A DNA stretch of 21,934 nt. Source: a virus. The notes beneath the pieces are model-generated. The model had not been told where the DNA came from. It saw only the letters and a list, made by a program, of their open reading frames with translations, and did no database searches. The stretch is from positions 1-21,934 of the IMG/VR virus record IMGVR_UViG_3300032322_002003, one strand, 5' to 3'. The translations under genes and the position numbers were made by a program. Each line of letters begins with the position of its first letter. Within the stretch, counting starts at the first letter, position 1. Below are positions 3,665 through 19,220 of this stretch, one piece after another.

Positions 3665-3678
3665 TTAATTATATCAGG
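3665..3678 (-). promoter_or_regulatory. repeated extended -10 promoter
   Basis: CCTGATATAATTAA on the minus strand, followed by AACGACGAAAGGA and the start at 3633. No TTGACA-like -35 is present at the usual distance. Confidence 0.8.
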
Positions 3679-3691
3679 TAGGTAGGGAAGA

Positions 3692-3868
3692 TTAGTTCTT
3701 TGTTCCCCATGTCACCAAGGTGATGACCTTGTCCGCAAGGAATTGGCTACGGGTATAAGTTTCGGCCCATGATTCAGCCTCTGCCTCTGATCGGCAATAT
3801 TGGTAGATGGTTTCACCGTTACTAAGTGTATAGTAGTACTTAGTTTGGTTTCCTGGAACGTTTATCAT
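3692..3868 (-). CDS. hypothetical protein, 58 aa
   Basis: ATG at 3868 follows the leader variant AACGACGGAGGGA, and its own -10 box lies at 3893-3906. The sequence is Tyr-rich (KYYYTLSNGETIYQY) with an Ala/Glu helix (SEAEAESWAETY). It is probably a small folded soluble protein; no family recognised. Its existence is supported mainly by the dedicated promoter and leader. Confidence 0.7.
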   Translation of the reverse strand: MINVPGNQTKYYYTLSNGETIYQYCRSEAEAESWAETYTRSQFLADKVITLVTWGTKN

Positions 3869-3892
3869 TTTAATCCCTCCGTCGTTTATAGG

Positions 3893-3906
3893 TTAATTAT
3901 ATCAGG
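3893..3906 (-). promoter_or_regulatory. repeated extended -10 promoter
   Basis: CCTGATATAATTAA starting 3 nt after the terminase stop codon, so the next gene gets its own start of transcription. No -35 seen. Confidence 0.8.
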
Positions 3907-3908
3907 AT

Positions 3909-5303
3909 CTACCTGACGGAGAACCCACCTTTGCCCCTGAAACTCGGGATCTTCCTATGGGCTGGAGATTTGGCCTTGATCTTTCCACCCATAAAGCCGG
4001 AGGGAGGCTTGATCAGTAGCGCGGTAAGGGCATGGACCAGCGCGTCGACTCTGTCCGGTGATTTACCCTCGCCAGGAATCCAGGCACACATCTGGGACTC
4101 TAGGTCTCCAAGATAGCCCACGTGGTGAACGCGGCTTTGCTCGTAGGCCAAGGTTATCGGCTCGGCGCGTAGAGCCTTGCCGTACTTGGAGTGTACCTCA
4201 AGAACCTTTACCGTTGGGTCAATCGTGTTAATCGCATTACGAACCAGCGCACCGCCTTGGTTAACCTCAGCCACAACTGGACAGCCCCACTTACGAGCCA
4301 TCTGAACTACTCGGTTTGCCCACACGTCGGGTGAGCCGTGAATTGATGCGTCCTCAAGAACCCAGCTCTGACGCTTGTAAAGATCTCGTTCACCTGTTGA
4401 TGCAACGACAACGATGCCACACTCGTCTCGTGGATTTTCAGCCACGGATGGATCTACGCCGATGCAGCGTAGCGGAGTTCCGATTGGATACTGCATGTCA
4501 CGGCCCTTATCAATAAGTTCCTGTGTCCATAGAGCTCCCTCGACGTCTGAGAGCATCTCGCCGTATAGTTCCTGGCTTGCCAGACGTGTACCTTCGTATA
4601 CACCAAGTATTGCGTCCAGGTAGGTCTTAGAAAGGTTTCCGGTGTTGTCCATGGTTGATCCACGTGTAATCTTTACTCGCCCTGTTTTCTCGGCCTCGGA
4701 CATAAGCTGGTAAAGAAGTGGAACACGCTTAGGAGTTGTTGTAATCATAATTTTTGGGTTGGCTCCAAGACGTGTACCAACGCGAAGGTTGTCAAATGCT
4801 GTCATACCTGCCGCATCGGGAGTTTGTCTCCAGGCTGCAACCTCGTCACCCCAGGCATGTGTAAATTGTGGACCACGAAGTGAATCTGGTTCGTCAGCCG
4901 TAAAACATGTAGCCGTATTTCCATTTGGCCAGGTTAATCTTCTTTTCGATGGTTCGTACAGTGGACGCTCACTTGGCGGAGTCACGTTAATGATTCCTGA
5001 CTCACCCTCAACGATAACGTCACGTACGTCAGCGGCAGTTCGAGCTACAAGTGCAAAACGCTTCTGTCCTTTGCTTGCGTCACGCGCTTCACTTCTAACC
5101 CACTCGGCGGCGGTACGTGTCTTACCAGCTCCACGTCCAGCCATGTAAAGCCAGATTGACCAATCACCCTCGGGTGGTTGCTGTTCAGGTCGACCCCACA
5201 CTGACCAGTCCCAAAGAAGTTGCTCGGCATCGAAACCTGCAAGTACAGCTTGCTTCTCTTCCTCTGAGAGGAGAGCTAATTTTTCCATCATACTCTTTGC
5301 CAT
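3909..5303 (-). CDS. terL: terminase large subunit
   Basis: 464 aa, full length for the family. The N-terminal ATPase has Walker A AGRGAGKT (55-62), Walker B HAWGDE (149-154, acidic pair D153/E154) and coupling motif TTTPK (188-192). The C-terminal RNase-H-like nuclease has candidate metal ligands D284 (IGVDPS), E346 (VAEVNQGG) and D417/D420 (SPDRVDAL). It drives DNA translocation into proheads and cuts the concatemer. The gene lies between an intrinsic terminator (5321-5358) and a repeated promoter, so it is a single-gene unit. ATG at 5303 has almost no leader (the palindrome 5305-5318 abuts it); M5 or M6 after AAAGAG are alternative starts. The small-subunit-like gene lies about 15 kb away. 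Confidence 0.95.
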   Translation of the reverse strand: MAKSMMEKLALLSEEEKQAVLAGFDAEQLLWDWSVWGRPEQQPPEGDWSIWLYMAGRGAGKTRTAAEWVRSEARDASKGQKRFALVARTAADVRDVIVEGESGIINVTPPSERPLYEPSKRRLTWPNGNTATCFTADEPDSLRGPQFTHAWGDEVAAWRQTPDAAGMTAFDNLRVGTRLGANPKIMITTTPKRVPLLYQLMSEAEKTGRVKITRGSTMDNTGNLSKTYLDAILGVYEGTRLASQELYGEMLSDVEGALWTQELIDKGRDMQYPIGTPLRCIGVDPSVAENPRDECGIVVVASTGERDLYKRQSWVLEDASIHGSPDVWANRVVQMARKWGCPVVAEVNQGGALVRNAINTIDPTVKVLEVHSKYGKALRAEPITLAYEQSRVHHVGYLGDLESQMCAWIPGEGKSPDRVDALVHALTALLIKPPSGFMGGKIKAKSPAHRKIPSFRGKGGFSVR

Positions 5304-5304
5304 G

Positions 5305-5318
5305 TGTACTATAGTACA
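5305..5318 (-). promoter_or_regulatory. 14-bp palindrome at terminase start
   Basis: TGTACTATAGTACA is a perfect palindrome ending one base before the terminase ATG. It contains TATAGT, which as a -10 box would give a nearly leaderless mRNA. It shares TGTACA half-sites with the regions upstream of 408 and 21299, so an operator is plausible. Confidence 0.5.
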
Positions 5319-5320
5319 TT

Positions 5321-5358
5321 AAAAAAGTAAAAGCTAGGCGGATAGGTACGCCCAGCTT
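5321..5358 (-). terminator. intrinsic terminator after deacetylase operon
   Basis: On the minus strand AAGCTGGGCG pairs with CGCCTAGCTT (10 bp, one G-U) around an 8-nt loop, followed by TTACTTTTTT. It lies 100 nt after the deacetylase stop and isolates terL from upstream transcription. The 5359-5457 interval before it holds only a weaker bulged hairpin and no gene. Confidence 0.9.
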
Positions 5359-5457
5359 CTACTTACCTGAAAGGATGTCTCAACCTGGTGGGATTGGAGG
5401 CTCACCAAGGAGACCCCCGCATAGGCATGAACGTACCTTGCGGTTAGTAATACTTTA

Positions 5458-6396
5458 TCACTTTTTTGCGAAAAGTGAAACCTCGTCATATACCGCATCA
5501 ACAACTCTTGCCCAGATGGCTGGAGTATGATCGAACGGCTGGTATCCACCGGCTCCTCCGATAAGTACTCTTCCATCAGAGTATGAGGATGCAATTCGAC
5601 CTACGGTACGAGCTGCGAACTCATATCCGTAGTAATCAAACTTAAGAGTAGATAACGGATCGGTGCGATGTGCATCAGCTCCGGTAGCCAACAGAACGAC
5701 GTCTGGTTTTATCTTGTCTGCCAGGATCTCGATCTCGCCCATTACGTTCATAAAGACCGAATCACCACTTGCCATGTCAAGTGCCCAGTTATATATTCCC
5801 TTTTCAGGTGAGTGACCACTTAGTCCAGTGCCAGGAAAGATAACTGAGTCATGAATAGAACACGTCACAAGATCAGGATCATCTGCCAAAAGGTTTTCAA
5901 CGCCATCTCCGTGATGTGCGTCCCAGTCAATATACATAACCTTCATGCCATTTTTCTGAAATTCCTTTGCAGCCCAAGCCATGTCGTTAAACACGCAGAA
6001 CCCAGAGCTGTGGTTGTATTGAGCGTGGTGCTTAGCTCCCTGAGGATTAAAGCCAACTCTCAACTCACCTGCAAGCATCTTCTCAGTTAACCGAACTGTT
6101 CCGGCAAACATGTGAAGGGCAACCTTTCCAAGCTCAACCTGGTCAGGATACCACTCACCACAGTGACCTTCGTCTAAAACCTTAGAAACATAGTCCTTGT
6201 CATGAATAGATTCAACTCTAGCTCGATCACCTTCTTGAATATCTGGTTTTACGATAACAAGTTCGTGGTCGTTAGAAAGAAGTTGTGTCGCGTACTTGGC
6301 ACGCACAGGATTAGTAGGATGTGAATCATTTGTCCTACCACCTAGCTTCCAGTCAAGATACACGTCATCGTATGCTACATGTATCTTATCTTTCAA
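5458..6396 (-). CDS. histone-deacetylase-superfamily zinc hydrolase (AcuC/HDAC-like)
   Basis: 312 aa, full domain length. Motifs: H123-H124 in GAKHHAQY (catalytic pair), DWDAHHGDG with zinc ligands D159 and H161, third ligand D241 in ATGADAHRTDPL, and Y285 in GGAGGYQ (transition-state Tyr). The family removes acetyl or acyl groups from lysines, or from polyamine and other small substrates; the substrate here is unknown. TTG start at 6396 follows GGAGG at ideal spacing and overlaps the phosphatase gene by 11 bp, so translation is probably coupled. The SD sits in GAGGA-GGT-TCCTC, a small self-complementary hairpin. All metal-binding residues are intact, so activity is expected. Confidence 0.9.
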   Translation of the reverse strand: MKDKIHVAYDDVYLDWKLGGRTNDSHPTNPVRAKYATQLLSNDHELVIVKPDIQEGDRARVESIHDKDYVSKVLDEGHCGEWYPDQVELGKVALHMFAGTVRLTEKMLAGELRVGFNPQGAKHHAQYNHSSGFCVFNDMAWAAKEFQKNGMKVMYIDWDAHHGDGVENLLADDPDLVTCSIHDSVIFPGTGLSGHSPEKGIYNWALDMASGDSVFMNVMGEIEILADKIKPDVVLLATGADAHRTDPLSTLKFDYYGYEFAARTVGRIASSYSDGRVLIGGAGGYQPFDHTPAIWARVVDAVYDEVSLFAKK

Positions 6397-6904
6397 GAGG
6401 AACCTCCTCGGACATAACTAGATAGTCGACAAAGTGTTTATTTAATAAGACAGCCTTACTTCTTTTTTCCCGCATAAGATTTATTGCGCCCTTTGCGGTA
6501 TATCCATCTTTCATTAAAACATGAGCCATGACAAGACTTGAACGATTGATTCCGGCCTGACAGCGAATTAACACGCGCTTACCAGACTTCCAGGCGTTGT
6601 ACGCAAACTCTGCTGCTCTATCAACCGCATCAAAATCGATGTGACTAATCTCTGAATCATAGAAGCCATAGCGCACCTCCTCGACTAACCAGTCAACTGG
6701 TTGAGCCCATGAGTAAAGTGTGACCACCGTATCAAATTCATTTTTTGTAATTACACGTGGTAAGTATGTGTTAACACTAGTTTCAATAGTGTCATCATCA
6801 TCCGTACCACCAAGCCACAATCCTGGGAGGATTTCACTCCATAGGGGGAAGTCCCAGCCGATGTCATGGACTGGTGCGTATAAGCTTTTATCCTCTAATT
6901 TCAT
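6386..6904 (-). CDS. dual-specificity / tyrosine phosphatase-like protein
   Basis: 172 aa. Residues 22-160 match the DSP fold: LPGLWLGG near the N-terminus, possible general acid D83 or D90, and the P-loop CQAGINRS with C115 and R121 (CX5R), followed by LVMAHVL and a helix. The His that usually precedes Cys is Arg (IRCQAG), which could alter Cys pKa but does not remove the nucleophile. It would dephosphorylate Tyr/Ser/Thr on protein or possibly a nucleotide or phosphoinositide-like substrate. The gene sits between a zinc protein and the deacetylase in one operon, suggesting paired removal of protein modifications from host targets (inference). GGAGGAG lies 10 nt before ATG. Confidence 0.88.
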   Translation of the reverse strand: MKLEDKSLYAPVHDIGWDFPLWSEILPGLWLGGTDDDDTIETSVNTYLPRVITKNEFDTVVTLYSWAQPVDWLVEEVRYGFYDSEISHIDFDAVDRAAEFAYNAWKSGKRVLIRCQAGINRSSLVMAHVLMKDGYTAKGAINLMREKRSKAVLLNKHFVDYLVMSEEVPLER

Positions 6905-6906
6905 TA

Positions 6907-7131
6907 TTATTCATCTCCTCCGTAATTTGTCATTACTTCCCAACATTTTGGGTGAATACCAGACTTAAGTTGTTCTCTTAGTGATTTGTCCAAATCAGGA
7001 AACGCATCTTGAATTAGCATTCCAAAGTTCCACTGAAGGAATCCTACTGAAGGAACCTCAACAAAACCATCCTCTTTACAGATTCCGCACACAGGTGTGT
7101 TTACTACATACACCATATCCTTGACGTCCAT
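6907..7131 (-). CDS. small zinc-binding protein, actinophage HPxCW family
   Basis: 74 aa with C15-x2-C18 and H60-x2-C63 as likely zinc ligands. The central part (GFLQWNFGMLIQDAFPDLD, then LREQLKSGIHPKCW) resembles a widespread small actinophage protein with pattern CxxC...QDAFPxL...REfL.sG..P.CW. The function of that family is not known to me. First gene of the zinc protein-phosphatase-deacetylase operon, with the standard promoter and AACGACGAAAGGA leader (6 nt to ATG). Confidence 0.75.
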   Translation of the reverse strand: MDVKDMVYVVNTPVCGICKEDGFVEVPSVGFLQWNFGMLIQDAFPDLDKSLREQLKSGIHPKCWEVMTNYGGDE

Positions 7132-7158
7132 GATTTGTCCTTTCGTCGTTTAATAAGT

Positions 7159-7171
7159 CTATTATATCAGG
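7159..7171 (-). promoter_or_regulatory. repeated extended -10 promoter
   Basis: CCTGATATAATAG on the minus strand, 4 nt after the Ntn-hydrolase stop codon. It drives the zinc protein, phosphatase and deacetylase genes. Confidence 0.8.
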
Positions 7172-7175
7172 TTTT

Positions 7176-7739
7176 CTAACCCTTCTGAGACATGATAATT
7201 ACTTCTCCACCTGAATACGCATCCCAACGAATTGAAACCTCAATAGCCTTTCGCAGTAGCTTCTCAGCCTCATCTATGTTCTTAGCCTTTTCAGCCTGGA
7301 GAGCTCCAAGAGCTCCAAGAGCGTACTTGCCTCCTGAACCGGCAACGTAGAGTCCACGCTTACATCTTTCCCATGAGTAATCCTCGGCGATGCTGTAAAG
7401 ATTTCCCTTAACCGCAACTATAAAGTTGTTGTCGTTGTATGCTACGTCTCCGTCGTCCTTCATGTCGTAGCCAGCCTTAATAAAAGCCTGCCGCATGCTT
7501 GGTATAAAAACCTTTGTCATGTATTCGTCGGTAGACCTACCGGTGAAACGAGGAGCAGCCCAACCAAACTGAAGTATGTTAATTCCACGAACAGCGCCTG
7601 CACCTGCGATTAACGTAGGTCCGTTCTTAAATGTCTTGCCTGTGACGATCTGCATCATGAAACCAGACTCGTCGCTAGCTTGACTGTCTGCACCAATGGT
7701 GCACCAGCCATCGCCTTGAATGGCCGCAAGAGTAGTCAT
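7176..7739 (-). CDS. Ntn-hydrolase, proteasome beta / HslV-like peptidase
   Basis: 187 aa. Starts M-TTLAAI, so removing Met would expose Thr2 as N-terminal nucleophile; D18 (GADSQAS) and K35 (TGKT) are in place, and VAGSGGKYALGAL matches the GSGG loop of HslV/20S beta subunits. There is no long propeptide. Such enzymes act as rings, usually with an ATPase (HslU, ARC/Mpa); none of those is encoded adjacent. It could self-assemble, process virion proteins or interfere with the host proteasome (inference). ATG follows GGGGGAA. The 64-nt upstream gap has two TATACA words but no consensus cassette. A short AGCTCCAAG tandem near 7300 encodes LGALGAL. Confidence 0.85.
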   Translation of the reverse strand: MTTLAAIQGDGWCTIGADSQASDESGFMMQIVTGKTFKNGPTLIAGAGAVRGINILQFGWAAPRFTGRSTDEYMTKVFIPSMRQAFIKAGYDMKDDGDVAYNDNNFIVAVKGNLYSIAEDYSWERCKRGLYVAGSGGKYALGALGALQAEKAKNIDEAEKLLRKAIEVSIRWDAYSGGEVIIMSQKG

Positions 7740-7803
7740 GGTTCCCCCGTAGAGAAGTCCTCGGTGTATAGGACAACTGTATACTACACGCCTAGGTCAC
7801 GTC

Positions 7804-8136
7804 TTATATTAGGTCTAAGATTCCTACCGGACAGGTCACGTTCGAGGATTCTACCTGACGGGTGACAGGATTTATCCTGGCAAATCTTCCTGTTGGATTA
7901 TCCAAACGAACCACAACCTTCGTGCGGTTCTTTGAAACGATGGTGGCGGTTTCACCTACCATGTACCTAGTTCCTGTTTGCTCGTTAAACTTAACCTTGT
8001 CCCCGATGTTATAGTCGAAGATGGTGCGTTCCTTACGAACTGCCTTTAGGCGTTGGGCAACTGCCTCGTTGATCTTCCCGAGGGAGGAGTCATAGGCACC
8101 GGATGATATATCCGCTAAAAGTGTCTCAATGCTCAT
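7804..8136 (-). CDS. hypothetical protein with SH3/KOW-like barrel
   Basis: 110 aa. Residues 1-40 are helical and charged. Residues 43-95 (YNIGDKVKFNEQTGTRYMVG, then ETATIVSKNRTKVVVRLD) read as alternating beta strands typical of small SH3 or KOW barrels that bind RNA or protein. The name is fold-level only. Its leader is unusual: the 13-nt translation leader forms the loop of an 8-bp hairpin (8136-8164). Confidence 0.7.
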   Translation of the reverse strand: MSIETLLADISSGAYDSSLGKINEAVAQRLKAVRKERTIFDYNIGDKVKFNEQTGTRYMVGETATIVSKNRTKVVVRLDNPTGRFARINPVTRQVESSNVTCPVGILDLI

Positions 8137-8164
8137 AGTACCTTCCTTTCGTCGTTAGGTACTA
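8136..8164 (-). promoter_or_regulatory. hairpin with the 13-nt leader exactly in its loop
   Basis: On the minus strand TAGTACCT (8164-8157) and AGGTACTA (8143-8136) are perfectly complementary. The loop is exactly AACGACGAAAGGA (8156-8144), and the last stem base is the A of the start codon. The ribosome-binding site would be displayed in the loop while the AUG edge is paired, so translation could be controlled by stem melting. Confidence 0.65.
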
Positions 8165-8174
8165 TTATATCAGG
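8162..8174 (-). promoter_or_regulatory. repeated extended -10 promoter
   Basis: CCTGATATAATAG ends within the leader hairpin stem; it lies directly after the stop codon of the gene at 8175-8420. Confidence 0.8.
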
Positions 8175-8420
8175 TTAGGAGTCAACCTCTGCTCTAAAAT
8201 ACTGGATTCCCTCTTCTTTTTGAACCTCATCCTGGGTCCAAGGTAGACGGGTACGACTTAAGTCACCTAGGCTGTTGGCAAACAACACGGCAGTCTTCTT
8301 TGCCGCACCTAACGAGGTGTGAGCCGCATAGCGAGTTTCACCGGACGCTAAGTCCTTAACTGTTACCAGCCATGCTGCCTGTGGTGCCTTGTTTTTTAAT
8401 AGGGTTGCTACTATACTCAT
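8175..8420 (-). CDS. hypothetical protein, 81 aa
   Basis: Basic N-terminus, a strand-rich middle (AAWLVTVKDLASGETRYAAHTS) and a helix (GAAKKTAVLFANSLG), then an acidic end. No recognised domain. ATG lies 4 nt after the preceding gene's stop, within AGAGAG-type spacing, so it belongs to the unit started at 8904-8917. Confidence 0.65.
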   Translation of the reverse strand: MSIVATLLKNKAPQAAWLVTVKDLASGETRYAAHTSLGAAKKTAVLFANSLGDLSRTRLPWTQDEVQKEEGIQYFRAEVDS

Positions 8421-8424
8421 TAAC

Positions 8425-8646
8425 TTACTCTCTTTCTACTTCGATTGTGTACATATGATTACAAAGTTTACAAGTTACCTCTTGACTGATGTTTCCCCAG
8501 TCATCGGTATGAAAATCTTCATTCCACACGCTAAGGCAGGTTTGCCCATCAACACAGTCATTGCATCGTTCTTTACATACGATCTCTAAAGTTACTTCCT
8601 CAGAGTAGATGCCTGAGCCCATCATTGAGCCTGCGTAATAGCTCAT
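8425..8646 (-). CDS. small Cys-rich zinc-binding protein
   Basis: 73 aa with C24, C28, C31, C37, then C59-x2-C62. The six Cys residues suggest one or two structural zinc sites. The C-terminal CKLCNHMYTIEVE resembles a zinc-ribbon knuckle. Middle gene of a three-gene run (8649-8885, 8425-8646, 8175-8420) with 2-4 nt gaps. Function unknown. Confidence 0.7.
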   Translation of the reverse strand: MSYYAGSMMGSGIYSEEVTLEIVCKERCNDCVDGQTCLSVWNEDFHTDDWGNISQEVTCKLCNHMYTIEVERE

Positions 8647-8648
8647 CT

Positions 8649-8885
8649 TTACTTTACCAGTTTTGGGTGGTAGCCGTCCTTGATGTCATTTTCAACATGC
8701 TGAACAGCCATGCTAAAACCTGCACCATTTTTGTTGTACCAATGATTTAAGTCACGTTCTCCGCAGCTTACGCCATCTTCAATTATCTCATAGGTGTTAT
8801 CCGCATATGCCTTAATCACGTATGAACCATCTGAGTTTGACCACTCCTTAATCAAAGTGTGATCTACATTAATTAACTTTGTCAT
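8649..8885 (-). CDS. hypothetical protein, 78 aa
   Basis: Begins MTKLINVDHTLIKEW and shows beta-type alternation (SDGSYVIKAYADNTYEIIEDG), then a helical C-terminus. No family recognised. ATG lies 5 nt after AACGACGAAAGGA. Here the -10 box and leader are nearly fused (TATAAT-TAA-AACGACG), giving the shortest predicted 5' UTR of the set. Confidence 0.7.
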   Translation of the reverse strand: MTKLINVDHTLIKEWSNSDGSYVIKAYADNTYEIIEDGVSCGERDLNHWYNKNGAGFSMAVQHVENDIKDGYHPKLVK

Positions 8886-8903
8886 TACTATCCTTTCGTC
8901 GTT

Positions 8904-8917
8904 TTAATTATATCAGG
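8904..8917 (-). promoter_or_regulatory. repeated extended -10 promoter
   Basis: CCTGATATAATTAA immediately followed by AACGACGAAAGGA. It lies 3 nt downstream of a perfect 8-bp hairpin. Confidence 0.85.
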
Positions 8918-8920
8918 TAG

Positions 8921-8944
8921 GGCGCCTACTTCTCCTTAGGCGCC
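8921..8944 (-). terminator. hairpin before promoter, possible terminator
   Basis: GGCGCCTA and TAGGCGCC form a perfect 8-bp stem with an 8-nt loop between the stop of the 96-aa basic protein gene and the next promoter. There is no T-run, so it may terminate inefficiently or protect RNA 3' ends. Each arm also contains the palindrome GGCGCC. Confidence 0.5.
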
Positions 8945-8960
8945 ATACCCGAGTTTTAAC

Positions 8961-9251
8961 TTACTTTGTTTTTGGGAACTTTTTAGTTCCCTTACGAAAT
9001 TGGCTCATAAAGCGAGAAGCCTCCTTCGTAGAAGCTACCTGGAGTTTCTCACCTGTTGAGGTGTTAAACACTAGGTAGTGTGAGCTATTCACCGCACGTA
9101 ATACAGCAAGTGTTTTACGCTTGCGGAAGTACGCTGGTGTATAACCTGTTGGTAGCTTAACTCCACGTGACAAAGGGGGAAGAGTTTCTACTCGAGTCCC
9201 TGGCTTTGTTCGCGCAGGTTTGGCTACGGGCTTGGCAGTTTTTGTTGCCAT
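8961..9251 (-). CDS. basic hypothetical protein, 96 aa
   Basis: I place the start at ATG 9251, 5 nt after GAAAGGA. An in-frame ATG at 9284 lies inside the leader motif and would put the ribosome-binding site in the coding region. The first about 25 residues are Lys/Ala/Pro-rich and look disordered (TKTAKPVAKPARTKPGTR). Residues 40-80 are strand-like (LAVLRAVNSSHYLVFNTSTG). The end is basic. It may bind nucleic acid by charge; no domain recognised. Confidence 0.7.
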   Translation of the reverse strand: MATKTAKPVAKPARTKPGTRVETLPPLSRGVKLPTGYTPAYFRKRKTLAVLRAVNSSHYLVFNTSTGEKLQVASTKEASRFMSQFRKGTKKFPKTK

Positions 9252-9288
9252 GCTCGTCCTTTCGTCATTGCTGGCGGTTGCCAACTCT

Positions 9289-9302
9289 TTAATTATATTA
9301 GG
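9289..9302 (-). promoter_or_regulatory. repeated extended -10 promoter (variant)
   Basis: CCTAATATAATTAA: the G of the TG extension is A here, so it may be weaker. The leader also contains a 6-bp hairpin GTTGGC-AACC-GCCAGC before the AATGACGAAAGGA leader. Confidence 0.7.
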
Positions 9303-9325
9303 TAGTTGGAGTTCTGTACAACGGA

Positions 9326-9514
9326 TTAATTGTAGGCAAAGTCACTGCAGGGAGGAAGGGCATGGGTACGCCAGTCCCTAGTTATTCTGTCAAGAAGATC
9401 TTTGTACTCAGGATTCTTTGCTCCAAGTTCAACAAGAGCGGCAAGGTCCATCAATGTATCAACGTGACTTTGCTTGTGCTCGTCGGGAGTCTGAGAACAG
9501 TATTGGCAACTCAA
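9326..9514 (-). CDS. small CxxC protein, 62 aa
   Basis: TTG start at 9514 overlaps the upstream stop as TTGA, typical of coupled translation. C3-x2-C6 (SCQYCSQTPDEH) with H13 and H17 nearby could bind zinc. The remainder is an acidic helix (VDTLMDLAALVELGA) and DWRTHALPPC. No family recognised. Confidence 0.6.
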   Translation of the reverse strand: MSCQYCSQTPDEHKQSHVDTLMDLAALVELGAKNPEYKDLLDRITRDWRTHALPPCSDFAYN

Positions 9515-9825
9515 GATAGAACCTTGAAGTTAGGGTGCATTGCTTCTTTGATCAGTGAGACTACGTCTCTTGATTTTCCTCCGATGTGATACTCACAGAT
9601 CTCATTCATTCCTGGAGTTCCATCCTCGTATCTTTTCCAATCATAGATCGTTGCGATCTCTCCATTGTCAAATTGAACTATCCACTCGAGGGTGACCTTA
9701 TCGGTATCCTCGTCAAAGCGAATTGGTTCTCCAAATGTGTCGATTAGATCACTTTGGGTAGTAGTGATGTATCCTTGAAGTGATGTGCCTGACGCGTTAA
9801 TGTCATGACTCGCATAAAATTCCAT
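9511..9825 (-). CDS. hypothetical protein, 104 aa
   Basis: I prefer ATG 9825 (MEFYASHD), 5 nt after GAAAGGA; ATG 9831 overlaps the ribosome-binding site itself. Sequence features: ITTTQSDLIDTFGEP, VTLEWIVQFDNGEIATIYDW and CEYHIGGKSRDVVSLI. This resembles small phage proteins with a mixed alpha/beta fold that sense or bind ligands, but I cannot name the family. Co-transcribed with the CxxC protein at 9326-9514. Confidence 0.7.
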   Translation of the reverse strand: MEFYASHDINASGTSLQGYITTTQSDLIDTFGEPIRFDEDTDKVTLEWIVQFDNGEIATIYDWKRYEDGTPGMNEICEYHIGGKSRDVVSLIKEAMHPNFKVLS

Positions 9826-9846
9826 GTTCATCCTTTCGTCGTTTGT

Positions 9847-9860
9847 TTAATTATATCAGG
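9847..9860 (-). promoter_or_regulatory. repeated extended -10 promoter overlapping a stop codon
   Basis: CCTGATATAATTAA whose TGA is the stop codon of the 43-aa gene upstream. It drives the genes at 9511-9825 and 9326-9514. Confidence 0.85.
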
Positions 9861-9987
9861 AAACGTACGCTGATAGAACCTGTTCCCAGGATTGATCCTT
9901 AATTTTTTTCTGAAGGTTTTTGTTTCCCTCAAGAGCGATAAGAATAAGTTGTAGCTCTTCCTCGCTGACCTTTACGTTGTAGTCCAT
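9856..9987 (-). CDS. hypothetical protein, 43 aa
   Basis: ATG at 9987 follows AGAGGGGGAAATT and has its own -10 box at 10011-10024. The peptide begins MDYNVKVSEEELQLILIALEG, an amphipathic helix, followed by NKNLQKKIKDQSWEQVL. It is probably a small helical binding protein. The TGA stop is part of the next promoter. Confidence 0.65.
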   Translation of the reverse strand: MDYNVKVSEEELQLILIALEGNKNLQKKIKDQSWEQVLSAYVS

Positions 9988-10010
9988 AATTTCCCCCTCT
10001 GTTGTTAGGG

Positions 10011-10024
10011 TTAATTATATCAGG
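10011..10024 (-). promoter_or_regulatory. repeated extended -10 promoter overlapping a stop codon
   Basis: CCTGATATAATTAA; its TGA is the stop codon of the zinc protein gene at 10020-10232. It serves the 43-aa gene. Confidence 0.85.
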
Positions 10025-11491: not shown

Positions 11492-11515
11492 TTTTGTCCT
11501 TTCGTCGTTATAGGG

Positions 11516-11529
11516 TTAATTATATCAGG
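11516..11529 (-). promoter_or_regulatory. repeated extended -10 promoter
   Basis: CCTGATATAATTAA followed by CCCTAT and AACGACGAAAGGA. It probably drives the acidic protein, the sigma-like protein and the four genes after it to 9856. Confidence 0.85.
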
Positions 11530-12501: not shown

Positions 12502-12526
12502 GTGTTTTCCTTCCGTCATTATAAGG

Positions 12527-12540
12527 TTAATTATATCAGG
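12527..12540 (-). promoter_or_regulatory. repeated extended -10 promoter
   Basis: CCTGATATAATTAA beginning directly at the end of the gene at 12541-12735. It drives at least the three coupled genes to 11725. Confidence 0.85.
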
Positions 12541-12973: not shown

Positions 12974-12997
12974 GGTATTCCTTCCGTCGTTGTTGGT

Positions 12998-13011
12998 TTA
13001 ATTATATCAGG
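12998..13011 (-). promoter_or_regulatory. repeated extended -10 promoter overlapping a stop codon
   Basis: CCTGATATAATTAA; its TGA is the stop codon of the gene at 13007-13213. It drives the 26-, 51- and 64-aa genes. Confidence 0.85.
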
Positions 13012-13213: not shown

Positions 13214-13239
13214 GTTCCTATCCCTCCGTCGTTTTATAG

Positions 13240-13321
13240 AACGCGGCGAGTGCTGGGATTGTTTCGACCCCCTGCAGGTTTCGAGGTTTTCGTTTGGCCA
13301 CCAGTGAAGCCTCGCCGCGTT
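13240..13321 (-). promoter_or_regulatory. 82-nt structured 5' leader, candidate cis-regulatory RNA
   Basis: AACGCGGCGAG and CTCGCCGCGTT (11 bp, perfect) close a 60-nt interior. Within it, CTGG/CCAG and ACCTC/GGGGT can pair, and CGAAA recurs three times. The closing stem begins about 7-8 nt after the TATAAT box, so it would form the very 5' end of the mRNA. No T-run follows, and the ribosome-binding site is about 10 nt beyond it. It is not a tRNA, and I could not match it to a riboswitch class I know. It could be a riboswitch, protein-binding leader or RNA-stabilising 5' structure. Confidence 0.65.
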
Positions 13322-13326
13322 AGTAT

Positions 13327-13339
13327 CTATTATATCAGG
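13327..13339 (-). promoter_or_regulatory. repeated extended -10 promoter overlapping a stop codon
   Basis: CCTGATATAATAG; the stop codon TAA of the subtilase gene is inside TATAAT (reading CTG ATA TAA). It drives the gene at 13007-13213. Confidence 0.85.
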
Positions 13340-14250
13340 TTATGTTGCTTTTGTATTACATCCTTCATCGAGCGGTACGCCTTTTCAAGCCCACCTTGGA
13401 TGGTTGACCATACGGAATCATACGTACCACCTTGTGAGAGGGACTGAGTCCATTTAGAGGCTGCCGCAACCGTTGCCGCTGAGGTACCTACGGCAAGTAT
13501 ACGCCTGCCGTTAAGAGTAATGGTGTCATACTTACCTAGGACGTACAGATCAAGATCCGGACCTCCGTTGGACGTAGGCATCACCGGATATATCCATCCG
13601 GTCACGCCGCGTTGTGAATAACGGATATCCGTCGCGCCTACAGCTATTGCCTCAGGTATACACGCCGGATAGTCAACCTTGTTTGGGTTGGACCTGTTGC
13701 CGGCAGCGATAAACACTCCGACGTTATTTTGTTTCAACGCAATAATTTGAGATTGCAGCGTTGCCTCTACAGGACACGCTGCCTCTGAATACGCACGACC
13801 TAATGAGATTGAGACCGCGCCGACGTTTAGTCGTGTGGCGTTTGCCGCAACCCAGTCAAGTGCTGGAATCAACGCGTTGGTTCTATACGTATTGGCAAAG
13901 CCTTTGTCAGACATACCTACGATACGAATTGCGACTATCTTTACTCCAGGGTTAACCGCAACCGCAACGGAGGCCATCTGTGTTCCGTGGTTAAAAGTTC
14001 TATCTCTATCAGCATCTCTTAGCGAGAGAGTTGCAGCTCCTGGACCAGTCATTGACGCCTGTCCATTTGGACACTTGCCGAACTCAATAAAGCATGCCTC
14101 CTCGACTAGTGCATTCTTTACCCAGTCAAGTTGAGAGTTAATCCCTGAATCAATGATGACCAAGGTTTTTTGTGGTGTAGCGCTAACAGGACCTGCCAGC
14201 CCAGCTACTAACGTTGAGGCTATCGCCGCAACTATGATCTTGTTCTTCAT
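13330..14250 (-). CDS. secreted subtilisin-like serine protease (S8)
   Basis: 306 aa. Residues 1-24 form a Sec signal peptide (basic MKNK, hydrophobic core, PVSA then T). The subtilase triad is visible: D34 (VIIDSGI), H88 (NHGTQMA), S257 (VGTSAAT), with oxyanion N185 (IAAGN). Four Cys in the mature part could form disulfides. There is no obvious propeptide: Asp lies only about ten residues after the cleavage site, so maturation is unusual. It would act outside the membrane, for example on host surface proteins, on a lysis component or against competing phages (inference). Promoter degenerate, leader AACGAC...GAAAGAAGGA. Confidence 0.9.
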   Translation of the reverse strand: MKNKIIVAAIASTLVAGLAGPVSATPQKTLVIIDSGINSQLDWVKNALVEEACFIEFGKCPNGQASMTGPGAATLSLRDADRDRTFNHGTQMASVAVAVNPGVKIVAIRIVGMSDKGFANTYRTNALIPALDWVAANATRLNVGAVSISLGRAYSEAACPVEATLQSQIIALKQNNVGVFIAAGNRSNPNKVDYPACIPEAIAVGATDIRYSQRGVTGWIYPVMPTSNGGPDLDLYVLGKYDTITLNGRRILAVGTSAATVAAASKWTQSLSQGGTYDSVWSTIQGGLEKAYRSMKDVIQKQHNLI

Positions 14251-14278
14251 GTCGTCCTTCTTTCGTTTTGTCGTTTAG

Positions 14279-14292
14279 TTAATTAGATCCGG
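14279..14292 (-). promoter_or_regulatory. degenerate copy of the repeated promoter
   Basis: CCGGATCTAATTAA differs from the consensus at two core positions (TG to GG, TATAAT to TCTAAT). It is probably weak or inactive and overlaps the 3' side of a strong hairpin. Confidence 0.5.
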
Positions 14293-14339
14293 TGCAGGTG
14301 GGCAGACAATCTGACGGAAGGTTTCCCACCCACACCGAA
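14288..14339 (-). terminator. long hairpin after VWA gene
   Basis: GGTGTGGGTGGG pairs with CCCACCTGCACC (12 bp, two G-U) and can extend to about 15 bp, with a 22-nt loop. It starts 4 nt after the VWA gene stop. No T-run; a terminator or RNA-processing site is likely. Confidence 0.5.
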
Positions 14340-14343
14340 TAGT

Positions 14344-16167
14344 TTAGGCAGCGTTCTTTCTGCCAATCTTTTCTAAAGCTTTTGCTGCTGCTTGGCCAAT
14401 CTGTAGTGCGGCAGCTGCTGGATCCTTTAGATTATTTAGCACAACTGTTGCTGTGCCACCTGTAATCTTTTCAAGATATCCACGATGAGGGTTATACCCT
14501 GGATCCTCGTATGATAGCCAAAGAACTGCAACACCATTGCGTTCACACTCGCGAACCCAGTGTTTAGCTCTATCAAGCTCAGTCTCGGTATAGACGCCAT
14601 CACTCACAACCACAAGTAGACGAGCGCCAGTACTTTGTAGAAGACCAAGTGATCCATCAAGCGCCTTGAATGCCTTGTCGAACTTCTCGGTAGGATCCGG
14701 AGCAGTGAACACGTTTACCTGATCAAGGTGTTGACCTGGTTTAAGTGTAGGGAACACACCTGCGCCATAGTAGACCATCGCGCAACGTCCTTGAACTCGA
14801 CGAGATGCCTCACTCATTGCCCAGGCAGTTGCTGCCATAGGTTCCATTGCTGCACTCATAGATCCGGAGATATCGACCATGACGCCAACCTTAAGAGTTG
14901 GATCATCAGTATGTTTGCGAACTGTACGTCTCCAAGGTTCTGCATTCATCATTGAACCTTGTGCCTTGTAGGCTGCCTGTTGAACTACTGCACGAGTGCG
15001 TAGACGTCCAGGTGGAAGTATAGACTGAATCTCAGTCTCATCGCGCTCACGATACTTAGCCTTCTCAAGTAGTTGAGCAATCTTGACTGCTGCTGCACGC
15101 TCGGCAGGAGTTGGAGTACGAGACTCCTTAAGAATAGATGAGCTGCCTGTTGATCCACTTTCTGATGTAGACTTAGAGAATACATCGTGGGCAACGTTCT
15201 CGTGATCACGTTGTTGACGTGCAGCCTGACTGCGCATATCAACAACCTTCTGCCAATCTTCCTTCTGCTCTTGCTCCTGAACCTCATCACCTGTGGCGAT
15301 GGCTACGTTTGAGGATGCCTCCTCGATAGCTTTTGTAAGTTCATCGATAACTGCGTCGATAAGAATCTTTGCACCTTCAGGAGATATCTTGGCATCTTGA
15401 TTTTCGCCAATATCCTCTGAAAGTTTAGATAGGATCTTTTCCCACTCGCGTGCTAACTCATAAAGATACGTTGGGTTAGTGTGGTTGTCATGAGCTTGAA
15501 ACTTGATCCAGATCTCACGAATAGCGTCGTAGATGTCTTGACCTAGGTGATCAACTACGATCGCCTTTATCTCTGCAACGTCGTCTGAATCAAGTGAACC
15601 TGCGTCAACGCGTGCACATGTAAGTGCTGCAAGTCCTGCGACTGAGCGAACTCCATGGGCAAGGTGTTGATCTGCCTGAGCTTGAACGTCATGTAGAACT
15701 ATCTCTAGTGCACATGCACGTAAGAAGACTCGATTACCTGGAAAGTTATCAACGCCATGCTTCTCGATACGAGACTCCTCTAGGGACATGAACGCATTGA
15801 ACTCGTAGTTTGAAAGTTCTTTTTGTGCAGCCTCAAGGGAATAGCGAGAGTAACGTGCGTGTAGTGCCTCATGGAATATTGCACCTGAGGCTTTTGGCCA
15901 ATCAAATAAGTTATCGCGATTGGTTAGATCACCAATCATCTCTGGTGTGACGCCTGCGCCAAAGGCAGCATCAATGTTAATCTCAACCTCTGCGCATATT
16001 GGATTAAAGCATGCAGGTGTTGGTCCACCGGCGCCTGGTCCAACGTACGCAACGATGTCTGAGCGTCCTGCCCAGGTATTTACTAACTCACCAATGCGTG
16101 CGCCAACTGGCAGCCACTCTGAAGGTGTACGTTCCGCACGTGTGGCGGATATCTTTATGTGTGCCAT
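14344..16167 (-). CDS. VWA-domain protein with HExxH metallopeptidase-like N-terminus
   Basis: 607 aa. The N-terminal part contains H99-E100-x2-H103 (GAIFHEALHARYS) with nearby acidic SLEESRIE (about 128-135), the gluzincin-like pattern of DUF2201_N. The middle (250-420) is charged and coiled. The C-terminal VWA domain has MIDAS D432-x-S-x-S436 (VDISGSM) and D523 (VVSDG). Such proteins partner with MoxR AAA+ ATPases (CobS/CobT, RavA/ViaA style) in metal insertion or complex remodelling. The MoxR gene is directly upstream, separated only by a hairpin and promoter. Related CobS-type pairs occur in other phages, but the role is unresolved. ATG follows AATGACGGAAGGA. Confidence 0.88.
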   Translation of the reverse strand: MAHIKISATRAERTPSEWLPVGARIGELVNTWAGRSDIVAYVGPGAGGPTPACFNPICAEVEINIDAAFGAGVTPEMIGDLTNRDNLFDWPKASGAIFHEALHARYSRYSLEAAQKELSNYEFNAFMSLEESRIEKHGVDNFPGNRVFLRACALEIVLHDVQAQADQHLAHGVRSVAGLAALTCARVDAGSLDSDDVAEIKAIVVDHLGQDIYDAIREIWIKFQAHDNHTNPTYLYELAREWEKILSKLSEDIGENQDAKISPEGAKILIDAVIDELTKAIEEASSNVAIATGDEVQEQEQKEDWQKVVDMRSQAARQQRDHENVAHDVFSKSTSESGSTGSSSILKESRTPTPAERAAAVKIAQLLEKAKYRERDETEIQSILPPGRLRTRAVVQQAAYKAQGSMMNAEPWRRTVRKHTDDPTLKVGVMVDISGSMSAAMEPMAATAWAMSEASRRVQGRCAMVYYGAGVFPTLKPGQHLDQVNVFTAPDPTEKFDKAFKALDGSLGLLQSTGARLLVVVSDGVYTETELDRAKHWVRECERNGVAVLWLSYEDPGYNPHRGYLEKITGGTATVVLNNLKDPAAAALQIGQAAAKALEKIGRKNAA

Positions 16168-16191
16168 TCTATTTTCCTTCCGTCATTTAGG

Positions 16192-16205
16192 TTAATTATA
16201 TCAGG
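16192..16205 (-). promoter_or_regulatory. repeated extended -10 promoter
   Basis: CCTGATATAATTAA between the post-MoxR hairpin and the VWA gene, letting the VWA gene be expressed apart from its ATPase partner. Confidence 0.85.
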
Positions 16206-16211
16206 TAAATA

Positions 16212-16249
16212 GCAAGGTCCTGGACACCCTATCCAGGACCCTACCTTGC
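16212..16249 (-). terminator. hairpin after MoxR gene
   Basis: GGTCCTGGA/TCCAGGACC (9 bp) with an outer GCAA/TTGC stem and a 7-nt loop, followed by TATTTACC. It sits between the MoxR stop and the next promoter; the weak T-richness suggests partial termination. Confidence 0.6.
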
Positions 16250-16260
16250 GCCAAGGGGAA

Positions 16261-17265
16261 TTAGATCTTGGCTGATTGGCAACCTTCACCGTAGACCCGA
16301 GTGAACACGTCCGCAACGACGGGGCGGTCGAGTTCTGGGGCAGCGGCGATGATGTTCGCGATAGCGAACTTCGTGCCAAAGGTTTTTGCAATATCGCGGA
16401 ACGCAAGTAGTTCACGCATCTGAGGTGCCCAGCCACACTCACCTGAAAGTTGACGACGAGATAAGTTCTGCGCAACTGTCACGATCTGTTGTGGTGCACC
16501 AAGCTTTTTAGCAAGTAGGAAGTCTGTTGTCATCTCTGCCTGAACGATAAAGCGAGATAGAAGTGCTTCTGACAATCGAACTCCAGGAGCGTTTGGATTG
16601 GTTGCTGCAATTACGTAGAACCCTTCCTTAGCTTTTACGGTGCCACGCTCTGGATTTGCAGTGATTGTAAGTTCTGCACGTCCATCCATAAGTCCATAGA
16701 CACCGGCCATAACCTTAGGATCGACAAGACCTACCTCATCGATAAAGAATGGTCTGCCTTGTTCGGCAGCTTTTACAAGTGGGCCATCTTCCCAGATGAA
16801 TCCACCTGACGGAGTTTGTACGTATCCACCAATGAAGTCTGCAAGTTCAGTATCACCGGTACCAAGTACTGTTAACACATCTGAGAATGCTGCCTCAACA
16901 AGTGCTGTCTTTCCACAACCTGGAGCACCATACAGAAGAACGTATTGGTTGTTCTCGCGTGCGGTACGCAAGACTAGTACATCGTCGTGCTCACCCCACT
17001 TGCGTGCATGGTAAACCTCGCCATTAGGGCGCTTGTAGGTAGATGATTCTCCTACGATTGCATCTGCTGATATCACCGGAATAACCTTCGTCTTAGGGGT
17101 TGGTCGATTGCCAACCTTACCCTGAGCGATAACCTGTGTATCGAGTTCTGCGGATACTGATGGATCTAGTTGCTGGGCAACTACATCAATGAATACTTTA
17201 CTCAACGGGGTGGCTGAGTCTGTGTATAGAGCATCTAGTGATGACTCTAAAAGTGATGTCGTCAT
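16261..17265 (-). CDS. MoxR-type AAA+ ATPase
   Basis: 334 aa. Walker A GAPGCGKT (113-120), Walker B FFIDE (173-177), sensor 1 ATNPN (221-225) and arginine finger in LSEALLSRF (R238). The GLMDGRAELT segment is the helix-2 or pre-sensor insert of the MoxR/AAA_5 clade. It should form a ring that remodels the neighbouring VWA protein or its target with ATP. About 70 residues precede the core. ATG follows AACGACGAAAGGA directly, but no -10 box is present, so it is co-transcribed with the 152-aa gene at 17297-17755. Confidence 0.92.
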   Translation of the reverse strand: MTTSLLESSLDALYTDSATPLSKVFIDVVAQQLDPSVSAELDTQVIAQGKVGNRPTPKTKVIPVISADAIVGESSTYKRPNGEVYHARKWGEHDDVLVLRTARENNQYVLLYGAPGCGKTALVEAAFSDVLTVLGTGDTELADFIGGYVQTPSGGFIWEDGPLVKAAEQGRPFFIDEVGLVDPKVMAGVYGLMDGRAELTITANPERGTVKAKEGFYVIAATNPNAPGVRLSEALLSRFIVQAEMTTDFLLAKKLGAPQQIVTVAQNLSRRQLSGECGWAPQMRELLAFRDIAKTFGTKFAIANIIAAAPELDRPVVADVFTRVYGEGCQSAKI

Positions 17266-17270
17266 TTTGT

Positions 17271-17283
17271 TCCTTTCGTCGTT
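17271..17283 (-). promoter_or_regulatory. translation leader without a promoter
   Basis: AACGACGAAAGGA before the MoxR ATG with no TATAAT upstream. It shows that the 13-nt leader is conserved as a translation element in its own right. Confidence 0.75.
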
Positions 17284-17296
17284 TTGGGTGTGGGTA

Positions 17297-17755
17297 TTAG
17301 CTTACAAATAATTCTTCACTGAAACCTAGAGCCTTGCGAACTCTGGTTATGCGACCTAGTACCTTGTAAGGTGTCTTGCCAAGGCGAATTCCATCTAGGT
17401 CCTCTGAGGCAACCTCAACTACGATGGGTAACTTATACAACTGGTACTTGTATCCCACCATCTGGTTGATGGTTGTCATCATAAATTCAAGTCTGCCCTT
17501 GGCAGTTTGAATTGCTTGGTCCTTAGGCATCGTTGTAAATGCTCCGAACTCGTTTATGTTTAGCGATGGAAGGCTGTAGCTTTTCCATGCCCTACGTGGT
17601 CTGCTCGATGATACCTGGCGTCGGTACACCATCGCTGGCACATATTTACCGTTGGAGTTAACTCCGTCCGGTGTGATCATCAACTGATAGGTCTGTGAAC
17701 CTGAGCGAAACTCGGTATAGAGAGCCTTACCAATGACCTTGTCTTTTTCAGCCAT
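17297..17755 (-). CDS. hypothetical protein, 152 aa
   Basis: Basic protein with strand-rich parts (YQLMITPDGVNSNGKYVPAM), SSSRPRRAWKSY and KYQLYKLPIVVEV. It precedes the MoxR-VWA pair in the same transcript, so it could be an adaptor or substrate of that pair (inference). No family recognised. ATG lies 5 nt after AACGACGAAAGGA. It has two tandem promoters (17783-17796 and 17843-17853). Confidence 0.7.
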   Translation of the reverse strand: MAEKDKVIGKALYTEFRSGSQTYQLMITPDGVNSNGKYVPAMVYRRQVSSSRPRRAWKSYSLPSLNINEFGAFTTMPKDQAIQTAKGRLEFMMTTINQMVGYKYQLYKLPIVVEVASEDLDGIRLGKTPYKVLGRITRVRKALGFSEELFVS

Positions 17756-17782
17756 GTTTATCCTTTCGTCGTTTGGGTAGGA

Positions 17783-17796
17783 TCAATTATATCAGG
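17783..17796 (-). promoter_or_regulatory. repeated extended -10 promoter
   Basis: CCTGATATAATTGA. Its transcript begins with ATCCT, which can pair with AGGAT at the ribosome-binding site of the same leader. Confidence 0.85.
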
Positions 17797-17842
17797 ATTC
17801 TAGGCGACTCCTAACAACTCCAATTCCCTGGGTGTTTTAAGT

Positions 17843-17853
17843 CTATTATATCG
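17843..17853 (-). promoter_or_regulatory. minus-strand half of a divergent promoter pair
   Basis: CGATATAATAG carries a perfect TATAAT but lacks the TG extension. Its box lies only 13 bp from the plus-strand TATAAT, so the two polymerases would compete. Confidence 0.65.
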
Positions 17854-17858
17854 TATTA

Positions 17859-17872
17859 CCTGATATAATTAA
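17859..17872 (+). promoter_or_regulatory. plus-strand copy of the repeated promoter
   Basis: CCTGATATAATTAA, the only copy facing right. It drives the only rightward gene in the window. The predicted RNA start is near an ATG at 17876 that opens a 20-codon frame overlapping the main start. Confidence 0.85.
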
Positions 17873-17918
17873 TCCATGCAACCAACCGGGGGCATAAATG
17901 ACGAAGGGAAGGGTCCAA

Positions 17919-18251
17919 ATGGCCAGCACCACAGTTAGAACCACAACCACGGAGATCGTGGTCACACATCTAGTCGCACACCTTGATGAATCTGCGGAGG
18001 CAGTAATCAAGGAGTTTGCAAAAGCCAAGGAGGACATAAAGGTCCTTGAAGAAAAGAAGAAGGTTGCCGAACAAAAGATTCGTCAACTACTTGGAGATTC
18101 CAAGCTTGGTTATATCAACGGAGTTAAGCGAGTTGAAATTAAAGACCGCGCTCTAACTAAAGTTGACCGCAAGATTCTTCAGGCTGCATACCCTGACGCC
18201 TACGAGGCATCATTGGTCTCAACTGCATACACAATTGTAGACGCTGAGTAA
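17919..18251 (+). CDS. YqaJ-recombinase C-terminal-like coiled-coil protein
   Basis: 110 aa from ATG 17919, preceded by GACGAAGGGAAGGG, a form of the repeated leader; ATG 17898 would add seven residues encoded by the leader itself. Residues 25-60 are a coiled coil (KEFAKAKEDIKVLEEKKKVA, then EQKIRQLLGDS). Next comes GYINGVKRVEIKDRALTKVD and YEASLVSTAYTIVDA. This layout (helix, GDxxxGxING, strands, T-x-S/T-x-x-T end) resembles the segment after the nuclease domain in YqaJ/lambda-exonuclease-type phage recombinases. Here it stands alone, so it may be an accessory to a nuclease elsewhere. The name is tentative. Confidence 0.7.
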   Translation: MASTTVRTTTTEIVVTHLVAHLDESAEAVIKEFAKAKEDIKVLEEKKKVAEQKIRQLLGDSKLGYINGVKRVEIKDRALTKVDRKILQAAYPDAYEASLVSTAYTIVDAE

Positions 18252-18263
18252 TCAGTAAAACTT

Positions 18264-18297
18264 AAAAGGCTCCTCGCTAACGCGGGGAGCTTTTTTT
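18264..18297. terminator. bidirectional intrinsic terminator
   Basis: GCTCCTCGC-TAAC-GCGGGGAGC followed by seven T on the plus strand, with AAAA on the other side giving TTTT for the minus strand. It ends the rightward gene and also the leftward zinc-ribbon unit, whose stop codon touches it. Confidence 0.92.
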
Positions 18298-18529
18298 ATT
18301 GTCCTGGAGTAATTACGCTGGACGCGCAGTCCTGACAGACAATCCAGTAGTCATCGTCATCCTCATTAACACAGACGACACATGGGAAGAACTTGTTTAG
18401 CGCGATTCCAACTACGACGTCACAATCAGCACACTGGTCATCGTCCTGATAGAACTCGATAGGCTCCTCACTCTGGAGATGATGAGCCTGGTCGAGCGTG
18501 TTTACTACGTAGAGCTGGTAGGTCGCCAT
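18296..18529 (-). CDS. six-Cys zinc-ribbon protein
   Basis: 77 aa with three CxxC knuckles: C33/C36, C50/C53 and C65/C68, enough for one four-Cys ribbon plus a spare pair. Very acidic loops (YQDDDQ; NEDDDDYW). Small adaptor or nucleic-acid contact is possible; no enzyme motif. No clear ribosome-binding site precedes ATG 18529, so it may be translated by re-initiation after the winged-helix gene 21 nt upstream. Confidence 0.7.
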   Translation of the reverse strand: MATYQLYVVNTLDQAHHLQSEEPIEFYQDDDQCADCDVVVGIALNKFFPCVVCVNEDDDDYWIVCQDCASSVITPGQ

Positions 18530-18550
18530 GGAGGCAACCGTAAACTAATT

Positions 18551-19174
18551 TTAGATAGCTGACTTGAGGAAATCACGTAGGCGATTTAACTCGGCCCTCG
18601 TGGAGTCTAGCTCCTTTTGAATTTCAGCGGTACGCTCAGCAACGATCTTTTCAATTAGATAATCTACCATGCCATTGCTGGTCATGCCTGGGCTTGAGGA
18701 TATTGGATCATCTACCTCGATAAGTTCTACCTCAACAGACTGCTTTTCTTTTTTCTTCTTTGACCATGGTTTAACCTCAACAAGAACAACACCAGGAATA
18801 ACCTCGGTAACTGTTCGGGTTGGAACTGGGTCTGACGTTGAGTAAAGTCTTGAAGATATGCTCTTGCGGAATACTCCTCCACCTGCGCGAACCTGACGTT
18901 CTTTAGGTTCCTCGGTACGGGAAAATATCTTTCCCATCCGAATAAGTTGAAGTGCGTACGAGCGTAGGGTTACCTCGCGATGTACCTTGCTAGACTTACT
19001 GTTTATGTGCGCGACGATCTCACTCAAGGTAAGAGGTTGCGAGTTAGAGCTAAGAGCCTCAAGTATTAGCTTGTGATACTCATGAAGTTGTAGCTCTGGT
19101 TTTTCCTGTGAGTTATCCTGCGTGGTTAGATTTACGGGTGTCGTAAAACGTGCCACCTGAAGTATGTTTGGCAT
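18551..19174 (-). CDS. winged-helix DNA-binding protein with C-terminal coiled coil
   Basis: 207 aa. Residues 30-110 fit a winged helix: helix 1 HEYHKLILEALSSNSQ, helix 2 LTLSEIVAHINS, recognition helix VTLRSYALQLIRMGKIF, and a wing with SSRLYSTSD. Residues 165-207 form a coiled coil (VDYLIEKIVAERTAEIQKEL, then STRAELNRLRDFLKSA), suggesting a dimer. The gene is adjacent to the divergent promoter region, so it may regulate it (inference). The leader AATGACGAAAGGA is 14 nt from ATG, longer than usual, but no other in-frame start exists nearby. Confidence 0.75.
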   Translation of the reverse strand: MPNILQVARFTTPVNLTTQDNSQEKPELQLHEYHKLILEALSSNSQPLTLSEIVAHINSKSSKVHREVTLRSYALQLIRMGKIFSRTEEPKERQVRAGGGVFRKSISSRLYSTSDPVPTRTVTEVIPGVVLVEVKPWSKKKKEKQSVEVELIEVDDPISSSPGMTSNGMVDYLIEKIVAERTAEIQKELDSTRAELNRLRDFLKSAI

Positions 19175-19206
19175 GCTGTCTTTTTGTCTCCTTTCGTCAT
19201 TGAAGT

Positions 19207-19220
19207 TTAATTATAACAGG
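19207..19220 (-). promoter_or_regulatory. repeated extended -10 promoter (variant)
   Basis: CCTGTTATAATTAA keeps TGnTATAAT with T for A at one position. It is the rightmost copy seen; none occurs in the lysis-terminase block to its right. Confidence 0.85.

Follow-up and report, generated by a model that had tools for sequence, protein, structure and literature searches.

The viral DNA stretch IMGVR_UViG_3300032322_002003 (an IMG/VR record; 21,934 nt, 47.8% GC), a fragment of a larger phage genome and called the window here, carries an array of short boxes that look like extended −10 promoters without a −35 element, as predicted from their letters. The array occupies the small-gene region preceding the terminase gene, and most boxes are followed by a leader resembling a Shine-Dalgarno (SD) sequence. 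Our favoured explanation, to which we give roughly even chances, is that the boxes are promoters of single genes or short operons that together form one phage regulon, read by the host sigma factor and bound at their flanks by a phage factor. The constant TGnTATAAT would be recognised by the host principal sigma factor, and the sequences flanking the −10, at about −24 to −16 and −6 to +2, would be a genome-specific putative site for the trans-acting factor. The best candidate is a 207-aa winged-helix protein encoded on the minus strand at 18551–19174, which would most likely be an autoregulated repressor or timer shutting or gating all the promoters together.

The box CCTGATATAATTAA has 16 matches with no more than two mismatches in the window, compared with 0.06 expected from dinucleotide shuffles; all but one lie on the minus strand, and nearly all precede the starts of small genes. 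At the same threshold the leader AACGACGAAAGGA has 18 matches (0.67 expected), again with a single one on the plus strand. These counts bear out the array reported in a preliminary description made from the letters alone, whose coordinates hold within 1 nt. Nearly all of its sites stand, with the exceptions of 17843 (ACGATATAAT), which has neither TG nor leader, and 14279 (CCGGATCTAATTAA), which is degenerate; the site at 8161–8174 (CCTGATATAATAGT) is genuine despite three mismatches to CCTGATATAATTAA. The box contains a perfect extended −10, TGnTATAAT, in agreement with the proposed promoter role, and a −35 is indeed absent from the window (−35 score z = 0.8; no excess of −35/−10 pairs over shuffles). 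The single fixed promoter-leader unit of that description did not hold up. The distance from −10 to leader ranges from 3 to 27 nt (commonest 6–10 nt) and three good leaders, at 2331, 13221 and 17271, have no box, so that box and leader are distinct elements, and the box itself is only this lineage's version.

Terminase, AAA ATPase, VWA, HslV-like and further genes assign the window to the DSL-LC01 group of large phages (genomes of ~115–135 kb), for which an actinobacterial host has been predicted (PMC10611076). The closest annotated member, Actinomycetia phage DSL-LC01 (129 kb), shares 79% terminase identity with the window and has the anchor genes in the same order. Relatives were collected using the ATPase gene, rather than the box, as anchor. 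Conservation in related phages, on which the preliminary description had made its reading depend, was found, with the arrangement kept before orthologous genes in dozens of relatives. The promoters there are −10-centred and usually extended, and their flanks are genome-specific and homogenised within each genome. DSL-LC01 has the same kind of leader after a different box (GATTCTAAAGnTGTTATAATnGAATC), and flanks in other lineages include ACCTACCTGATATAATTATCCTA, TACTT..CATGATATAATAGTACTA, TTCTAAAGAAGTTATAATGTACTTACC and AATCTAGGGATTGTATAATAATCT. Two relatives (L317 and L330) have neither −35 nor TGn and a weaker −10; their arrays were found by per-genome motif fitting and are invisible to a filter on TGnTATAAT only. 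A host origin of the box-leader unit was rejected, as a prokaryote genome collection gave 25 stretches from several phyla, none of them actinobacterial, compared with at least 120 stretches from viral contigs.

Flank similarity was compared within and between genomes, taking in only promoters detected in both genomes of a pair. For the upstream flank it is 0.55 between different genes of one genome, compared with 0.35 for orthologues and 0.35 for non-orthologues in different genomes; for the downstream flank the corresponding values are 0.56, 0.40 and 0.39, and fitted registers give the same trend. A control region farther upstream shows 0.29 within genomes and 0.26 for both orthologues and non-orthologues between them. 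Agreement within genomes, together with the lack of an orthologue signal, indicates that the flanks, conserved at about −24 to −16 and −6 to +2, changed together in each genome. Cassette copying is an unlikely cause, because spacer length varies and upstream sequence is hardly shared, and the simplest reason for the concerted change is a trans-acting factor that reads all the sites. The flank pattern, being sequence evidence, points to such a factor and suggests that each phage carries a protein controlling all these promoters together.

The winged-helix gene is the first gene of the array and stands under its own box (CCTGTTATAATTAA, 19207–19220, minus strand; leader 19189–19201), and in many other genomes it likewise sits under the box of its lineage. 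Its product has a weak Pfam helix-turn-helix match, and AlphaFold predicts a confident winged helix with a long C-terminal helix (mean predicted local distance difference test score 78.9); fold matches are to generic winged-helix DNA-binding regulators at low significance, and no specific family match was found. A pattern search for distant relatives returned none usable, because the family is too diverged. Across 39 genomes there are 10.35 sites per 10 kb on the downstream side of the gene and 0.58 on the upstream side. All 39 nonredundant genomes whose promoters are −35-less and of the flank type carry the gene, and none of the 18 others does; one further relative (L278, discussed below) is not counted in these tables. 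Mean flank information is 13.3 bits in genomes with the gene and 5.8 bits in those without, and 11 of the 18 negative genomes have a significant −35, in some close to TTGACA.

Gene families were compared over ~10 kb on either side of the ATPase gene in a table whose two groups were defined by whether the winged-helix gene is present. Its perfect score there arises by construction; the independent result is that promoter measures divide the genomes in the same way. That range leaves room for a different phage protein binding the flanks, which we regard as quite improbable: the persistence of boxes in L278 without the winged-helix gene would suit it, but within the range no other family follows promoter class as closely (the next best is found in 22/36 compared with 0/17), and it is the winged-helix gene that lies exactly at the start of the array.

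As to the direction of control, we favour repression or a timed shut-off over activation, since the putative site spans both the −10 and the start, where a bound protein would compete with RNA polymerase. Activation would require the winged-helix protein to stand in for the −35 contact, acting as an activator or promoter-specificity factor in the manner of sigma appropriation in phage T4, perhaps with a WhiB-like protein occupying sigma region 4; we consider this rather unlikely. It fits the lack of a −35 in genomes with the winged-helix gene and its frequent presence in those without, and also the arrays of L317 and L330, which have a poorer −10 and neither −35 nor TGn. Every winged-helix-positive near-complete genome tested encodes one to three WhiB-like proteins, and the family member WhiB7 has been shown to bind SigA region 4 (PMC3905903). 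A genome that lacks the winged-helix gene (G020) has WhiB as well, however, and WhiB was rejected as the discriminating factor since it is found in both promoter classes. Further points against an activator are that part of the conserved flank (−6 to +2) lies in DNA that melts when the open complex forms, where an activator could hardly stay bound, and that L278 kept its boxes after losing the gene. Actinobacterial promoters, moreover, often lack a good −35. The broader form of the idea, in which the protein is a new promoter-specificity factor activating −35-less elements that abut the −10, with an orthogonal promoter dialect of 10–35 genes per lineage in which site and protein change in concert, is in our estimate a doubtful proposition. 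A phage sigma factor was rejected as the reader of these promoters, since the families for sigma-70 regions 2 and 4 had no match in 13 near-complete genomes, a set that does not include the window's own full genome.

Several observations weigh against the favoured explanation of a host-read regulon under a winged-helix repressor or timer. On the ATPase tree the promoter trait has switched state only some three times, giving few independent events. Flank divergence is significantly correlated with divergence of the winged-helix protein in a Mantel test (partial r 0.39), but control genes track it equally well or better; the protein is not singled out, and we have not used this link as evidence for it. 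L278, which is 83–90% identical to the window, has a clean ~680-bp deletion that removes the winged-helix gene and its promoter (L278:1–1400), and its boxes are kept. Such a deletion tells against an activator that the promoters need. It can be reconciled with a repressor, since losing one could be easier than losing an activator, but also with a recent loss or a faulty assembly, and the gene may have a copy elsewhere. In most genomes dyad symmetry does not reach significance, and dyad or direct-repeat operators were therefore rejected as a general feature. A lysogeny repressor is not supported either, as no tyrosine integrase was found in the 13 near-complete genomes and no actinobacterial genome gave a match to the box-leader unit. 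Eight of these 13 genomes, DSL-LC01 (2281–2724) and seven relatives, encode a small serine recombinase of 225–260 aa.

Some of these points would equally suit an absence of any dedicated factor, with strong host-read promoters whose flanks have been homogenised within each genome by copying, recombination or mutational bias. The core is near consensus (mean −10 match 5.75 of 6) and on paper sufficient, and both the Mantel result and the boxes of L278 agree with such a reading. We nevertheless find it unlikely: box and leader are conserved across a spacer of varying length, and the region upstream of the flanks shows hardly more likeness inside a genome than across genomes, neither of which is expected from cassette copying; and the flank information of winged-helix genomes is above that of the other class.

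Among known systems, the array works most like the middle promoters of T4 or the operator network of Cluster A phages, and does not share all the defining features of either. T4 middle promoters, which depend on sigma appropriation by MotA and AsiA (PMC2988021), likewise combine a strong host −10 (the excellent match is shared), often with TGn, with a phage-specific element and no −35. In T4, however, the MotA box is centred at −30, whereas in the present array the element directly adjoins the −10 and extends past it on the downstream side, and the candidate protein gave no family match. As regards a co-activator on sigma region 4, WhiB-like genes are present. The Cluster A operator and stoperators (PMC9262239) are also numerous, short and asymmetric, lie for the most part between genes and share one orientation, with variants that differ between lineages, but stoperators are proposed to stop transcription and lie mostly away from promoters, whereas the present sites coincide with −10 boxes; Cluster A phages are temperate, with integration or partition; the 13 near-complete genomes here gave no tyrosine integrase, and eight of them encode small serine recombinases. 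The 17-bp repeats of Cluster O (PMC4351075) are many and short, occur in an actinobacterial phage and are thought to be bound by a phage protein; unlike the present array, they are palindromic, largely off promoters and about a third of them inside genes.

The preliminary description had drawn an analogy with the start-associated sequences (SAS) of Cluster K mycobacteriophages (PMC3203893), and this applies to position only. Both repeats stand just upstream of the starts of small non-structural genes, and the associated ESAS repeats differ between subclusters, but ESAS consists of two 17-bp repeats in inverted orientation rather than an extended −10 promoter, and the SAS consensus GGGATAGGAGCCC has no match in the window at up to two mismatches. 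A start-associated translational element of this kind, with no promoter role for the box, is highly improbable. The leaders do lie mostly 5–7 nt before start codons and some lack boxes; against this, the box equals the extended −10 consensus letter for letter, its distance from the start codon is variable, and the flanks vary around a constant −10.

The leader AACGACGAAAGGA would instead act as a separate strong SD sequence in an A/C-rich, open 5′ untranslated region of ~26 nt, favouring high translation of short mRNAs. The median length of this region is 26 nt, computed from an assumed transcription start 7 nt after the −10, and the SD is slightly more accessible when the native upstream sequence is in place (0.684 compared with 0.661). 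The GAAAGGA part fits the actinobacterial anti-SD, as had been noted, but the leader is less distinctive than it seems: over 428 sites the firm core is ACGAAAGGA, and the upstream part is A/C-rich and slightly less structured. The spacing of 5–7 nt to the start codon applies to most leaders, but the one at 19189 stands 14 nt away and the one at 17897 (plus strand) 9 nt. That a leader follows almost every box is likewise mostly correct, with poor ones at 13327 (AACGCGGCGAGGC) and 10011 (AACAACAGAGGGG). A weaker form of the leader also occurs in relatives without boxes.

The system offers, in a common group of uncultured lake phages, a regulon of roughly 10–35 promoters per genome, in which concerted turnover has replaced the flanking sites many times and the promoter positions have not moved. 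Its lineages form a natural series in which a joint change of specificity in a regulator and its full set of sites could be studied, and the system provides a defined candidate regulator as well as strong, possibly orthogonal promoters and leaders for actinobacteria.

Relatives without the winged-helix gene show other arrangements. One relative (G003, L126–L130) has at ~56–84 kb an array of its own with a conserved TTGCGAAATGTC-like element and the leader ACGAAAGGAAATCAAATG, and L333 has an array of near-canonical TTTGACA-N-TATAAT promoters preceding small genes. In isolated Microbacterium and Gordonia relatives no winged-helix homologue was found, and the 30-kb regions read contained no box arrays.

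Individual sites in the window, on the minus strand unless stated, begin at the downstream end of the array with CCTGATATAATTAA at 3665–3678 (leader AACGACGAAAGGA at 3641–3653) and a box at 3893–3906 (leader AACGACGGAGGGA at 3874–3886), near the terminase large subunit gene (3909–5303, minus strand). They continue with CCTGATATAATAGA at 7158–7171 (leader 7138–7150), CCTGATATAATAGT at 8161–8174 (leader 8144–8156), a box at 8904–8917 whose leader (8891–8903) begins just 3 nt beyond the −10, CCTAATATAATTAA at 9289–9302 (leader AATGACGAAAGGA at 9257–9269), and boxes at 9847–9860 (leader 9831–9843), 10011–10024 (the poor leader AACAACAGAGGGG), 11516–11529 (leader 11497–11509), 12527–12540 (leader AATGACGGAAGGA at 12508–12520) and 12998–13011 (leader AACGACGGAAGGA at 12979–12991). 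CCTGATATAATAGA recurs at 13326–13339 with the degenerate leader AACGCGGCGAGGC and a GTG start, and the degenerate box CCGGATCTAATTAA at 14279–14292 (leader 14263–14275) precedes the S8 protease gene. The box of the VWA-domain gene (16192–16205; leader 16175–16187) has a counterpart before the orthologue in most relatives compared. The conserved anchor gene for the AAA ATPase (16261–17265, minus strand) has a leader at 17271–17283 and no box, and the gene at 17297–17755 is preceded by CCTGATATAATTGA at 17783–17796 (leader 17761–17773). The weak box-like site ACGATATAATAGA (ACGATATAAT) at 17843–17856 stands back to back with the divergent plus-strand box at 17859–17872, which is followed by a leader at 17897–17909, a short gene starting near 17919 and a terminator-like hairpin at 18264–18295.

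The AAA ATPase adjoins a weakly VWA-like protein (14344–17265), a pair common to most relatives compared. The small-gene region also encodes an HslV-like peptidase (7176–7739), a dual-specificity phosphatase (6386–6904) and a subtilase of family S8 (13330–14250), and a protein with a histone-deacetylase-family domain (5458–6396; Pfam E 5e-53) is unusual for a phage.

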